The notes under the pieces were generated by a model. The model searched no databases, had not been told where the DNA came from, and saw only the letters and a list, made by a program, of their open reading frames with translations. From an uncultured Erysipelotrichaceae bacterium (GTDB taxonomy: Bacteria > Bacillota_I > Bacilli_A > Erysipelotrichales > Erysipelotrichaceae), in the NCBI GenBank assembly GCA_944326825.1, contig CALVFL010000034.1, forward strand, positions 1-45,664: a stretch of DNA of 45,664 bases. The letters are read 5' to 3'. The position numbers and the translations under genes were made by a program. Shown here in pieces: positions 40,842 through 45,664 of the stretch (the first letter of the stretch is position 1; each line of letters opens with the position of its first letter).

Positions 40842-41222
40842 ATGAAAAAGATCTCACGGTCAGAATACATTATTATGGATGAGCTTTGGAAGGATCCGAC
40901 TCCCCGAAACCGGCATGATATAGCTTTGATGATCTCACAACTTGACAATCACGAGCCATGGGGCTTGCCGACCATTTCCACTTTCATTTCCCGTTTGTGC
41001 GCTAAAGGGGTCTTAACTTACAAAAAGATCGATCGGATGTATTGTTACTACCCGAAAGTAAGCCGCAAAGATTACGAACAGAATATCATCAATCAGCATT
41101 TGAAAGATGATTACGAGATCGATTTTGAAGACCTGATCTTAAAATATACGGGCAATGTCAATCATCCGGAATTAAAAGAAGAGATTCGCAGTTTCTTAGA
41201 AAGCATCGCTTCCAACAATTAA
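40842..41222 (+). CDS. BlaI/MecI-family transcriptional repressor
   Basis: This 126-aa protein has the winged-helix fold of BlaI/MecI repressors: ISRSEYIIMDELWKD, then TISTFISRLCAKGVLTYKKIDRMYCYYP, the typical recognition helix and wing. A C-terminal dimerisation helix region (about 75-126) follows. BlaI-type repressors are usually cleaved by a partner BlaR1/MecR1 protease; none lies in this window. It is alone on the plus strand between two minus-strand operons, so its target is unknown. No TACA-N4-TGTA operator is obvious in front of it. Confidence 0.82.
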   Translation: MKKISRSEYIIMDELWKDPTPRNRHDIALMISQLDNHEPWGLPTISTFISRLCAKGVLTYKKIDRMYCYYPKVSRKDYEQNIINQHLKDDYEIDFEDLILKYTGNVNHPELKEEIRSFLESIASNN

Positions 41223-41295: not shown

Positions 41296-43683
41296 TTAAT
41301 GATTGAGCAGGTTTTCTACTTCATTGATGCCGCTGGCCTTGATGACATTTTCACCCTTGTCAATGACTAATGTCGGAGCAGCCATGACATCATACTTATC
41401 TACCAGATCTAAATGATCGTTGGACAATACTTTTTCAAAGCTGATGCCTTTTTCTTTTAAGATCTTTTCAGCCAGTGAACAGTTCGGACAAGTCGTCGTC
41501 GTAAACAACATTACCTTATCATTGTCTTCAAAAGTCAACTGAAGATCAGAAACGAGTTCTTCTTTGTTTTCTTCGTCTTTTTTCAAAAAGGCTTCTTTGG
41601 CTTTTAAGACTGAATGACCCATGTCGTATTCCTTGCGGTCTTCAAATTCTTTAGCCTTGCCATCATTCCAGTTTTGGACCGGACGGTAATAACCGGTGAT
41701 CCTTGACCAGACTTCCGTCTTTTTATGACAGATCGGACATTCATAAACTTCACCATTGATATAGCCGTGATCTTTACAGATCGAATAAGTAGGTGAAATG
41801 GTGTAGTATGGCAAACGGTAGTTGTCGGCGATCTTTCTGACTAAAGTAGCAGCTGCTTTCCAGTCAGGCAGTTTCTCGCCAAGGAAAGTATGGAAGACCG
41901 TGCCCGAAGTATAAAGAGTCTGAAGTTCATCCTGAACGTCAAGAGCTTTAAACACATCATCAGTATAACCGACCGGCAAATGTGATGAATTGGTGTAGTA
42001 AGGCGTATCATCATTTTCGGAAGCTGTGATGATGTCAGGATATTTGGCCTTATCGTGTTTAGCTAAACGGTAAGCTGTCGATTCAGCCGGAGTAGCTTCC
42101 AGGTTATAGAGATCATGATATTCTTCCTGATAGATGACTAAACGTTCACGCATGTGATTCAAGACTTCCTTGGCAAAGGCTTGGGCATCTTCATGAGTCA
42201 GATCATCTTTTAACCAGTCGGCATTCAAACAGGCTTCGTTCATGCCGACTAAGCCGATCGTTGAGAAGTGATTGTTGAAGGTGCCAAGATAACGTTTGGT
42301 ATATGGATATAGACCGTTATCTAAAAGCTTAGTAACGACTTCACGCTTTACGTGCAAAGATCTCGCACTGATGTCCATGATATGATCTAAGCGTTTATAG
42401 AAGTCCTCTTTGTCTTTAGCCAAATAAGCGATACGAGGCAAGTTGACAGTAACAACACCGATCGAACCTGTTGATTCGCCGCTGCCGAAATAACCGCCTG
42501 ATTTCTTTCTAAGTTCTCTTAGATCAAGACGCAAACGGCAGCACATCGAACGAATGTCGCTTGGCTTCATATCAGAATTGACGTAGTTAGAGAAATACGG
42601 AGTGCCGTATTTAGCAGTCAGATCAAATAATAATTTGTTGTTTTCAGATTCGGACCAGTCAAAATCCTTGGTGATCGAATAAGTCGGGATTGGATATTGG
42701 AAACCACGGCCGTTCGCATCCCCATCTAACATGACTTCAATGAAGGCACGATTGACCATGTCCATCTCTTTTTTACAGTCCTTGTATTTGAAATCCATCG
42801 GTTTGCCGCCGACAATGCAATACTGCTCGGCCAGATCTTCAGGTACAGTCCAGTCAAGCGTGATATTGGAGAATGGTGCCTGCGTACCCCAGCGGGATGG
42901 CGTATTTACACCATAGACGAAAGACTCGATACAATGTTTAACGGTATTGAAATCCAGATTATCAACTTTGACAAACGGAGCTAGATAAGTGTCAAATGAC
43001 GAGAAAGCCTGTGCGCCAGCCCACTCATTTTGCATGATGCCCAAGAAATTGACCATCTGGTTGCATAATGAACTTAAATGTTTAGCCGGTTTAGAGGTGA
43101 TCTTGCCGTCAACGCCGCCTAAGCCCTCTAAAATAAGCTGTTTTAAAGACCAGCCGGCACAATATCCTGTCAACATGGAAAGATCGTGCAGATGGATATC
43201 GCCGTCACGATGAGCCTTGGCGATCTCTTCATCATAGATCTCTGATAACCAGTAGTTGGCAGTGATAGCCCCAGAGTTGCTCAAGATCAAGCCGCCGACA
43301 GAATAAGTAACGGTCGAATTCTCTTTGACTCGCCAGTCGGAAACATTGACATACGAATCAACGAGATCCTTATAGTTAAGCATCGTTGATTTTACATTTC
43401 TGATCTTTTCTCTTTGTTTGCGGTATAAGATGTAGGCTTTGGCTACATCGGCATAACCGGCTTTGGATAAAATATCTTCAACGCTGTCCTGAATGTCCTC
43501 AACCTGAATGAGATCGTTTTTGATCTTGTTTTCAAAATCAGAAGTAACATTTAGGGCCAGCATGTCGATCACACTTGGATGGGTATTCTTCTCACAAGCT
43601 TTAAAAGCTTTGGAAATGGCATCAGATATTTTCTTGATGTCAAATTCTACGATCTTGCCATCACGTTTAACTACTTTGTACAT
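41296..43683 (-). CDS. nrdD: Anaerobic ribonucleoside-triphosphate reductase with C-terminal redoxin domain
   Basis: This 795-aa class III reductase makes deoxyribonucleotides without oxygen using a glycyl radical. Residues about 1-95 form an ATP-cone (VVKRDGKIVEFDIKKI) for allosteric control. The core carries the NrdD motifs, and the glycyl-radical Gly664 lies in SRITGYYRPVQNW, preceded by a zinc-site segment with CPIC. Unlike most NrdD, a further domain follows (about 715-795): a glutaredoxin/NrdH-like fold with CPNC at 732-735 and cis-Pro in MAAPTLVI. This fits the NrdD subgroup that takes electrons from a redoxin rather than formate. It starts 11 nt after the activase gene, with a strong SD. 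Confidence 0.93.
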   Translation of the reverse strand: MYKVVKRDGKIVEFDIKKISDAISKAFKACEKNTHPSVIDMLALNVTSDFENKIKNDLIQVEDIQDSVEDILSKAGYADVAKAYILYRKQREKIRNVKSTMLNYKDLVDSYVNVSDWRVKENSTVTYSVGGLILSNSGAITANYWLSEIYDEEIAKAHRDGDIHLHDLSMLTGYCAGWSLKQLILEGLGGVDGKITSKPAKHLSSLCNQMVNFLGIMQNEWAGAQAFSSFDTYLAPFVKVDNLDFNTVKHCIESFVYGVNTPSRWGTQAPFSNITLDWTVPEDLAEQYCIVGGKPMDFKYKDCKKEMDMVNRAFIEVMLDGDANGRGFQYPIPTYSITKDFDWSESENNKLLFDLTAKYGTPYFSNYVNSDMKPSDIRSMCCRLRLDLRELRKKSGGYFGSGESTGSIGVVTVNLPRIAYLAKDKEDFYKRLDHIMDISARSLHVKREVVTKLLDNGLYPYTKRYLGTFNNHFSTIGLVGMNEACLNADWLKDDLTHEDAQAFAKEVLNHMRERLVIYQEEYHDLYNLEATPAESTAYRLAKHDKAKYPDIITASENDDTPYYTNSSHLPVGYTDDVFKALDVQDELQTLYTSGTVFHTFLGEKLPDWKAAATLVRKIADNYRLPYYTISPTYSICKDHGYINGEVYECPICHKKTEVWSRITGYYRPVQNWNDGKAKEFEDRKEYDMGHSVLKAKEAFLKKDEENKEELVSDLQLTFEDNDKVMLFTTTTCPNCSLAEKILKEKGISFEKVLSNDHLDLVDKYDVMAAPTLVIDKGENVIKASGINEVENLLNH

Positions 43684-43694
43684 ACTTTTCCTCC

Positions 43695-44837
43695 CTATTC
43701 TATTCCTCTTAACTCAACATGTTCGATGTAGTTGGTCAATGATTCTCTAAATTGTTCAAGAGTCGCTTTATCATGAGCGTGCAGACCCTTTTTGATCACA
43801 TTCTCACTATCAACATAGGATTGCAAGAAATAACGCTTGGCGCCCTTCAGCCACTCGCCGATCTTTTGCATATCATCTAAAGTGTGAAACTCTTTAACGA
43901 TCGTCGTTCTAAATTCATAATCGACCTTACTTTCTTTAAGCAGTTCTACACTCTTTTCAACAGCACTGAGATCAAAGCCGTTGACGTCGATCGTCATCGC
44001 ATATTTATCCTTGCTGTTTTTAATGTCCATCGCTACATAATCGATCAGACCTTCATCGATCAGCTCTTTTAGTTTTTCATATTGCGAGCCATTGGTATCG
44101 ACCTTGATCGAGAGTCCCAGTTTCTTTACTTGGATGATGAAGTCTTTCAGACCCTTCTGCAGTAGCGGTTCCCCACCGCTGATACAAACACCATCAAGAA
44201 TATTCTTTCTTTCGTTTAAAAAACTAAAGATGTCATCAAGCGGTATCTCGTTTTCATTTTCATCAAGGAAGACCAGATCACGGTTATGACAAAATGGACA
44301 TTTAAAATTGCAGCCGCCGGTAAACAGCGTCGTCGCCATCTTGGTAGGATAGTCAAGAAGCGAGAGCTTTTGAATACCGAAGAAATGCAGATCATGAGGT
44401 TTTTCATCCAAAGTCAGATCTTTAGCATTCTTAATGATCTTAGGCAGTCCTTTTTGAAGCACTGCAAGCTCTTCATCGTTTAGATCTTTTAAGAGATACT
44501 CCCACCAGCGCTGTCTGACGATATAGATCTCAGGCATGAGATTGCTGGCTTCATCAGTCAGATATAACTCTTTTTGTCTTTTGTCGCTCAAAGAAACTAT
44601 CGCCTTGACATAACCCTTATCGATAAGATGCTGGATCGATTTGGTGATCGTACCTTTGTCAAAGTTGCCAAGATTGGCCAGATCATTCATCGAGATCCCT
44701 TCTCTTTCATTGATCAGAGTCAAGATAAGTATATTGCCATAGCCTAGATCATACTTGGCCAGTAGACGGTCAAAATATTTCTGTGACGATCGGTAAATGA
44801 TCGAAGAATCTAAAGATAAATTACGTGACTGACTCAT
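43695..44837 (-). CDS. nrdG: MarR-type winged helix fused to the NrdG activase (radical SAM)
   Basis: This 380-aa protein is a fusion. Residues about 1-140 form a MarR-family domain: helices around YGNILILTLI, ISMNDLANLGNFDKGTITK as helix-turn-helix, and a wing with SDKRQKELYLT. After a linker, residues about 152-380 match the NrdG2 radical SAM activase: FGIQKLSLLDYPTKM, then the iron-sulfur motif CNFKCPFC (Cys176, Cys180, Cys183) and SGGEPLL. The activase generates the glycyl radical on NrdD. The single frame has no interruption, and codons run straight across the junction. SD GAGGT precedes the ATG. An inverted repeat overlaps its promoter, suggesting autoregulation. Confidence 0.9.
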   Translation of the reverse strand: MSQSRNLSLDSSIIYRSSQKYFDRLLAKYDLGYGNILILTLINEREGISMNDLANLGNFDKGTITKSIQHLIDKGYVKAIVSLSDKRQKELYLTDEASNLMPEIYIVRQRWWEYLLKDLNDEELAVLQKGLPKIIKNAKDLTLDEKPHDLHFFGIQKLSLLDYPTKMATTLFTGGCNFKCPFCHNRDLVFLDENENEIPLDDIFSFLNERKNILDGVCISGGEPLLQKGLKDFIIQVKKLGLSIKVDTNGSQYEKLKELIDEGLIDYVAMDIKNSKDKYAMTIDVNGFDLSAVEKSVELLKESKVDYEFRTTIVKEFHTLDDMQKIGEWLKGAKRYFLQSYVDSENVIKKGLHAHDKATLEQFRESLTNYIEHVELRGIE

Positions 44838-44855
44838 TTTCTACCTCGCTCACCC

Positions 44856-44887
44856 ATTATAACACTAATAATGGTTGAATGTTCAAC
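44856..44887 (-). promoter_or_regulatory. nrd promoter with a MarR-type operator candidate
   Basis: On the minus strand TTGAAC (44886-44881) and TATAAT (44861-44856) form a promoter with a 19-nt spacer. The inverted repeat GTTGAA-N2-TTCAAC (44874-44887) covers the -35. Its shape resembles MarR-family operators, and the first product has a MarR-type domain, so it may repress its own operon. Confidence 0.55.
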
Positions 44888-44904
44888 TAATTTTATATAA
44901 TTTT

Positions 44905-44940
44905 TAACGACATTAAAATAACCCTTATAATAAAGGGTTT
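44905..44940 (-). terminator. Second, weaker terminator after 5S rRNA
   Basis: Arms AACCCTT (44920-44926) and AAGGGTT (44933-44939) are followed by ATTTTAAT on the minus strand. It lies just past the main terminator, a possible backup that insulates the nrd promoter from rRNA transcription. Confidence 0.5.
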
Positions 44941-44959
44941 AGGCATAAAAATAAATATT

Positions 44960-44984
44960 AAAAAAGCCATCCCTCAGGACAGCT
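44960..44984 (-). terminator. Terminator of the rRNA operon
   Basis: AGCTGTCC pairs with GGATGGCT (8 bp with two G-U) around loop TGAG, followed by six T residues on the minus strand, five nt after the 5S 3' end. Confidence 0.85.
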
Positions 44985-44988
44985 TGTC

Positions 44989-45100
44989 TGATCCGGCGGC
45001 GTGCTTGATTCACATTTCTGCTATGCTTGCCGATGAAGTGCTTAACTTCCGGGTTCGAGATGGGACCGGGTGTGACCACTTCTCTATAGTCACCGGATCA
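44989..45100 (-). rRNA. rrf: 5S ribosomal RNA
   Basis: A complete 5S gene of about 112 nt. The ends TGATCCGG and CCGGATCA pair to form helix I. The conserved segments GTGGTCACACCCGGTCCCAT, CGAACCCGGAAG and TTAAGCACTTC are present. It is followed by a terminator and preceded by the 23S gene in the normal 23S-5S order. Confidence 0.95.
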
Positions 45101-45186
45101 TAAGAGAGATTAATTCTCTCAAAACCGAATAGCACATCTTTAAGATATCTTATGTTTTCTATATATGTGTTTTTAAATATATCTTA
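45101..45186 (-). other. 23S-5S internal transcribed spacer
   Basis: An AT-rich spacer of about 86 nt. It contains a small hairpin (GAGAGA/TCTCTC, 45104-45120) near the 5S 5' end that may serve RNA processing. No tRNA lies in it. Confidence 0.7.

Positions 45187-45664
<478 letters not shown>

Follow-up and report, generated by a model that had tools for sequence, protein, structure and literature searches.

A MarR-type domain fused to the NrdG2 activase, and a predicted operator before ribonucleotide-reductase genes in one bacterial order

Introduction

Ribonucleotide reductase (RNR) sets the supply of DNA precursors. In most bacteria the regulator of RNR transcription is taken to be NrdR, which is described as controlling several RNR operons from sites lying over promoters (PMC9110341), the binding sites being paired NrdR boxes (PMC12051234).

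Other described proteins share individual traits with the locus reported here. BirA has a winged helix and, like NrdG, modifies a protein substrate. Both BirA and PutA are described as bifunctional enzyme-repressors (PMC6978683). The MarR protein MexR is reported to use a GTTGA half-site, with half-sites 5 bp apart (PMC9892617), and ArnR and SufR are presented as Fe-S winged-helix regulators (PMC12343034). Enzyme-repressors and Fe-S winged-helix regulators are already known; the combination of a MarR domain with an NrdG activase appears to be new. A sequence-only reading of this DNA had known of no described example of such a fusion, and we found no description of one in the listed titles and abstract starts of the open-access literature, a scope outside which most subscription journals fall.

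Results

The fusion gene and its protein

The window, that is, the whole stretch of 45,664 nucleotides that was analysed, contains the fusion gene and the nrdD gene behind it.

43695..44837, minus strand: MarR-NrdG2 fusion gene, 380 aa, a single open frame with both halves above curated cut-offs
44430..44804, minus strand: MarR domain, aa 12-136, both dimerisation ends included (PDB matches 3s2w/3bpx, AlphaFold2 helices)
44640..44660, minus strand: recognition-helix motif DKGTITK, aa 60-66 (invariance in the alignment; residue 64 tracks operator base +/-2.5)
43815..44381, minus strand: NrdG2 radical SAM activase domain, aa 153-341, with CxxxCxxC at 176/180/183 (TIGR02495)
41296..43683, minus strand: nrdD, 795 aa, the next gene after the fusion, with ATP-cone, NRDD and a C-terminal glutaredoxin-like domain

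The sequence-only reading had seen here one uninterrupted frame joining an N-terminal MarR-type winged helix to an NrdG2 activase with Cys176, Cys180 and Cys183, and each part of that description is borne out. The frame runs from ATG to stop with zero internal stops. When the full protein was compared with domain databases, a check that the same reading had proposed, both halves scored above the cut-offs: MarR (PF01047) at 33.7 bits (cut-off 24.6) and Radical_SAM at 70.5 bits (cut-off 29.5) in Pfam, and NrdG2 (TIGR02495) at 218.4 bits (cut-off 131.15) over residues 153-341 in NCBIfam. The amino-terminal half matches PDB sequences over the full MarR fold, 3s2w at residues 12-136 (1.6e-13) and 3bpx at residues 12-135, and is a complete winged-helix domain that includes the dimerisation helices at both ends. 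The C-terminal half is an NrdG2 activase by its TIGR02495 score, its CxxxCxxC motif, the three cysteines of which are invariant in an alignment of 40 sequences, and the adjacent nrdD; its predicted role is to activate anaerobic RNR. No methionine occurs between residues 101 and 167 of the protein sequence, so that there is no obvious ATG from which a free activase could be made.

An AlphaFold2 model computed from the 40-sequence alignment has a mean pLDDT of 88.5 and a pTM of 0.62, and both folds are present, the MarR helices spanning residues 7-25, 95-115 and 121-145. In Foldseek comparisons, the model matches the MarR chain 3bpx_B with a TM-score by target of 0.90 and the PFL-activating enzyme 8fo0 with one of 0.78. 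Residues D60, K61, G62, T63, K66, D85 and R87, which belong to the recognition helix and the wing, are invariant in the 40 sequences. They are nearly so in a wider sequence set, where L226, L100, L102, L106, L107 and L110 are among the exceptions.

The window NrdD scores 633 bits with Pfam NRDD, 82 bits with ATP-cone and 1141 bits with PRK08270. Its gene follows the fusion on the same strand after a gap of 11 bp, for which reason the two presumably form one operon. A glutaredoxin/thioredoxin-like domain with a CPNC motif occupies about residues 719-793 at the C-terminus of NrdD and could serve as an internal reductant. Genes for 5S rRNA (44991-45097) and 23S rRNA (45184-45664) lie immediately upstream of the operon on the same strand and bound the promoter region. 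Terminator-like hairpins are seen at 44985-44964 and 44939-44920, between the rRNA genes and the fusion, and a winged-helix gene of the penicillinase-repressor (BlaI/MecI) type at 40842-41222 on the plus strand is convergent with nrdD.

Spread of the fusion

In a search of 5.8 billion proteins that scored 8000 clusters, both domains are present in all 120 clusters listed, 17 of which are near copies of the window protein; the public names of listed members, where given, are those of an activating protein only. The sequence-only reading had asked which genomes have this architecture, and among 244 genomes drawn from the order, 119 do, with 7 having a stand-alone NrdG2 only. The corresponding figures for the family are 62 and 7 of 145 genomes. 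A class-wide draw of 296 genomes gave 18 with the fusion, all from families f1, f2 and f21, and 62 with a stand-alone NrdG2 only; genomes without a match at E 1e-30 were counted as having neither. In genus g32, some genomes contain the fusion together with a stand-alone NrdG2. Since the architecture recurs across clusters, family and order genomes, a frameshift or misassembly fusing two genes, the chance of which we put as negligible, is ruled out as its origin.

In a quick tree, 61 of 63 fusion rows fall in one group (SH-aLRT 89); L229 and L230 lie outside it on a branch of length 3.7. The fusion copies of family f21 (L219-L221) nest beside the window's genus in this tree and keep the operator described below at one mismatch; their position suggests that they arose by horizontal transfer. 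The divergent fusions L227-L232, at 32-38% identity, lack the GTTGA-type operator and may use another site. Beduini massiliensis GM1 (L003) is a named-strain carrier, and in it two tandem palindromes stand ahead of the fusion gene, upstream of 5001.

A predicted operator in the fusion promoter

The region 44850-44890, named as the promoter in the sequence-only reading, does contain a conserved palindrome of the MarR type.

44874..44887, no strand: predicted operator, palindrome GTTGAA-CA-TTCAAC (GTTGAACATTCAAC), one mismatch to GTTGRAANTYCAAC
44856..44885, minus strand: promoter-like hexamers TGAACA-18-TATAAT, the second preceded by TG and the first (-35) falling within the predicted operator

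The hexamers agree with the consensus at 10 of 12 positions and are a consensus match only, as 4 such sites occur in 43690-45000 against 3.3 in shuffled sequences.

The pattern GTTGRAANTYCAAC was read by eye from the window and L001-L020, 20 of these 21 loci having the site. It was then sought, at up to two mismatches, in the 250 bp upstream of each fusion or stand-alone NrdG2 gene, after removal of three duplicates, of the fusion locus L088, which has no upstream sequence, and of a stand-alone locus whose upstream was short. The site precedes 53 of 62 distinct fusion genes and 2 of 59 stand-alone NrdG2 genes, and is found in 2.6% of shuffled upstreams. In the first set, the counts are 46 of 48 distinct fusion upstreams, 21 of them exact, against the same 2 of 59 (Fisher 3e-25), and the site starts 24-67 bp ahead of the start codon in the 46. 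Among the 27 fusion upstreams that are independent of the derivation of the pattern, 26 have the site. A further 14 distinct fusions (counted without L217 and L225, which duplicate earlier loci) gave 7 with the site, the misses being L218 and the divergent L227-L232, and 18 fusion loci fetched later, partly from the same genomes, gave 14. Within the limits of the search, the fusions without a site are L020, L087, L218 and L227-L232, together with those of G191, G219, G222 and G125 among the 18. In none of the 59 stand-alone NrdG2 genes tested was an in-frame MarR half detected.

The sites vary in a dyad-symmetric manner. At +/-2.5 from the centre, 47 of 57 distinct sites are symmetric against 27.7 expected, G:C pairs being exchanged for A:T pairs, and the total symmetry of the 57 sites exceeds that of all 2000 column shuffles, a comparison uncorrected for relatedness.

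Sites at other ribonucleotide-reductase genes

An exact-site scan of the 244 genomes listed at least 44 matches away from the fusion in fusion-bearing genomes, and all 44 were fetched. For 19 of them, an RNR gene follows after 27-93 bp; the other 25 are not at RNR genes. In the fusion-less genomes, 2 of 37 exact sites analysed (from 66 listed) are upstream of RNR genes, and both belong to genus g32, many other members of which have the fusion. Many matches in both kinds of genome fall in coding regions. The 19 trans sites precede a second nrdD in 16 cases (L158 and L187, the two that were checked, being of the PRK09263 type), nrdD in two (L165 and L175) and a class I nrdA in one (L180, 1418 bits). 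RNR genes at the scanned sites were recognised by three queries only, namely the fusion and two nrdD types; it was the ATP-cone that brought the L180 nrdA to light, and RNR genes without one could thus be missed on both sides of the comparison. The genomes of L165 (G222) and L175 (G219) encode a stand-alone NrdG2 in addition to the fusion, and in them the operator stands ahead of nrdD and is absent from the fusion's own promoter. At L165, the one of the two that was checked, the stand-alone NrdG2 adjoins the nrdD with the trans site.

The comparison was also made starting from the genes. In 47 chosen genomes (28 with the fusion, 19 without), there are 88 ATP-cone genes; the 28 behind a fusion (27 directly, that of G150 about 1.6 kb on) were set aside and the remaining 60 retrieved. 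Allowing up to one mismatch to GTTGRNNNNYCAAC, a site is upstream of 14 of 32 genes in fusion genomes against 2 of 28 in fusion-less genomes (Fisher 0.0014). By gene, this is 11 of 20 nrdD and 3 of 12 nrdA with the fusion, against 2 of 24, 0 of 3 and 0 of 1 without it. The looser count, at up to two mismatches to GTTGRAANTYCAAC, gives a weaker contrast of 16 of 32 against 5 of 28. The label nrdDB in this test denotes the best score among three queries; other nrdD types, with scores of no more than 199-227 bits, account for L306, L310, L313 and, among the 24 fusion-less rows, for 13. The two-mismatch match at L296 was rejected as an instance of this operator because it is a palindrome of the GTTGCA type.

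A second nrdD occurs in four genomes of the window's genus (G144, G130, G109 and G226), and in each it is preceded by the site at 0-2 mismatches; the fusion was detected in three of the four and not found in G226. Upstream of nrdA, the site is present in G045, G084 and G223 (1-2 mismatches) and not in G130 (3) or G523 (5). The window's own genome, G000, has no convincing second target: its other one-mismatch sites are at control level, and the candidate before its nrdA (L287) is only the AT-rich GTTAAAAATTAAAC, which we do not find convincing.

Residue 64 and the operator base

At 55 loci, residue 64 of the recognition helix could be set against the operator base at +/-2.5. Isoleucine accompanies A:T at 15 loci, a mixed pair at 1 and G:C at 1; the corresponding counts are 8, 6 and 2 for valine and 0, 6 and 16 for threonine. 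The trans RNR sites of the Thr-type genomes are G:C in 14 of 14, including G219 and G222, which have no site at the fusion's own promoter; these 14 genomes are not independent, since all are in one genus, g32. Two f2 genomes, G151 and G156, break the rule: their residue 64 is isoleucine, yet the fusion's own site is G:C and the trans sites are mixed. Part of the relation is due to common descent. As the cis and the trans sites agree with residue 64, the sequences point to the fusion as the reader of the palindrome in both settings.

A rival reading assigns the palindrome to another regulator and takes the fused MarR half for a remnant or a tag for dimerisation. In its favour, other MarR proteins, MexR among them, also have half-sites of GTTGA, a different gene of the Crp/Fnr type is found at nrdDB in some genomes, and in G194, G251 and G226 the site is ahead of nrdD where the fusion was not found, perhaps through incompleteness of these genomes. 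Against this reading, which we judge highly improbable, stand the conservation of the recognition helix and wing, the occurrence of the site with the fusion and not with NrdG2, and the tracking of residue 64 by the operator base in cis and in trans.

The operator, its symmetry and the residue-64 match would also suit a fusion in which the two halves are not coupled. In such a plain autorepressor, the MarR half would hold the levels of fusion and NrdD constant by mass action, with the state of the activase irrelevant or with a small ligand in the MarR pocket as the signal. This leaves unexplained both the retention of the fusion across families f1, f2 and f21 and the trans sites before other RNR genes, and we think it unlikely.

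NrdR and other possible regulators in the order

The sequence-only reading had set the fusion against RNR operons under separate repressors such as NrdR, and the genomes sharpen that contrast. NrdR (TIGR00244) is above its cut-off in 0 of 145 family genomes and is found at E 1e-8 in 0 of 244 order genomes, a search for which the control was positive in 9 of 14 known genomes. No NrdR gene was found in the genome of the window. In the family genomes there are 25 matches below the cut-off, at 19.8-31.3 bits, of which 24 lie in frames of 716-873 aa and that of G069 in a frame of 278 aa; these are taken as RNR ATP-cones, and a present but missed NrdR was rejected. The fusion-less genomes of the order lack a detectable NrdR too, and loss of NrdR therefore does not go hand in hand with the fusion. 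The fusion is not NrdR itself, as it does not have the Zn-ribbon and ATP-cone that make up TIGR00244: no ATP-cone is among its 18 Pfam families, and NrdR is absent among the matches listed (25 of 85 NCBIfam).

At loci L342-L345, which come from three genomes where no fusion was found (G048, G017 and G050) and one that has it (G120), a divergent gene of the Crp/Fnr type faces a second nrdD operon that includes a short NrdG-like gene, and a related palindrome, GTTGCA-N2-TGCAAC, lies in between, as a near-match in G050. The gene may encode a different RNR regulator. As the palindrome that separates it from the operon is not that of the fusion, NrdR may have been replaced in more than one way within the order.

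Discussion

Given a one-frame fusion spread through one order, a conserved site at its promoter, trans RNR sites in relatives and no NrdR found, we consider it probable that the fusion binds the palindrome in its own promoter, likely repressing its operon and, in relatives, other RNR genes. It likely controls the RNR genes that it serves because a matching palindrome stands both in its own promoter and before RNR genes in relatives. To judge from its sequence, the fusion is a candidate trigger enzyme of the BirA and PutA type, in that enzyme and DNA-binding domain are in one protein and a predicted operator precedes genes of its own pathway. A wider proposal seems to us evenly balanced: that a radical-SAM activase is the master RNR regulator of an order without NrdR, acting through the palindrome before its own operon, a second class III RNR and, in certain species, the aerobic class I RNR, with transcription coupled to its catalytic or cluster state.

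In mechanistic terms, a MarR-like dimer of the fusion would bind GTTGR-N4-YCAAC and, once bound, would block the -35 region and repress the operon, the fusion thus taking the place of NrdR as repressor of RNR genes. The signal is the least certain step. For it we tentatively put forward a BirA-like scheme, to which we would give somewhat less than an even chance, chosen because NrdG, like BirA, acts on a protein substrate and then lets go of it. As long as NrdD has yet to be activated, the activase half of the fusion would be engaged with it; when NrdD carries the glycyl radical, free activase would build up and repress. The supply of reductase would thereby be matched to what the activase can serve. 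Activated NrdD is reported to turn over without NrdG (PMC11226230), so the activase need not stay bound. In the NrdD of Prevotella copri, the glycyl radical is reported to form even with dATP present (PMC11226230), which makes dATP feedback through NrdD activation unlikely.

The main rival to the BirA-like signal is that of the sequence-only reading, in which the fusion represses RNR genes and reports redox state, loss of the oxygen-labile [4Fe-4S] cluster, or the SAM state, altering its binding to DNA. Thiol sensing is known for some MarR proteins. In the fusion, the only cysteines are C176, C180, C183 and C218, all in the activase half; with none in residues 1-150, thiol sensing by the MarR half is ruled out, leaving the activase half as the only route for a redox signal. 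This arrangement of cysteines fits the redox reading, as do the existence of Fe-S winged-helix regulators such as ArnR (PMC12343034) and the O2-dependent class I nrdA that some relatives have under the same site, which suits an oxygen signal. It is weakened by the expectation that a cluster in the activase serves catalysis and by the AlphaFold2 model, where residues 144-147 form a low-confidence linker hinge and the arrangement of the domains is not confident. None of the analyses places it ahead of control by substrate or by titration. We regard the redox signal as possible, if doubtful, and retain the BirA-like scheme as our working proposal.

An order without detected NrdR has a candidate replacement made from the RNR activase itself. 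If this is true, a glycyl-radical activase doubles as a repressor, offering a clean test of how an oxygen-sensitive radical enzyme is matched to demand. The reading can be tested directly by way of the residue-64 relation, the predicted operator of 14 bp and the named-strain carriers.

Comparison with known systems

Like NrdR, the fusion is predicted to control several RNR operons from promoter sites, its own included. It differs from NrdR, a protein of Zn-ribbon and ATP-cone, in having no detected sequence relation to it, a single palindrome in place of a box pair, and a DNA-binding domain that is joined to an enzyme.

The nearest stand-alone counterparts are the NrdG2 proteins of TIGR02495, which share the activase domain and, at L165, have nrdD alongside. 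Unlike the fusion, the 59 tested have no detected MarR half in frame, and 57 of the 59 lack the site. The relation to MexR and other MarR repressors is seen in the full MarR fold and in the GTTGA half-sites of the predicted operator; here, in contrast to MexR, the predicted half-sites are 4 bp apart, the C-terminal helix continues as a radical SAM domain, and the MarR half has no cysteine.

ArnR and SufR, like the fusion as predicted, combine a winged helix and an Fe-S cluster in one protein. Their cluster is in a regulator, whereas that of the fusion belongs to a predicted radical SAM enzyme. Finally, the fusion resembles the trigger enzymes BirA and PutA in that one polypeptide is both an enzyme and the predicted repressor of the pathway it serves, and differs from them in its MarR domain, its radical SAM activase and the RNR pathway in which it acts.
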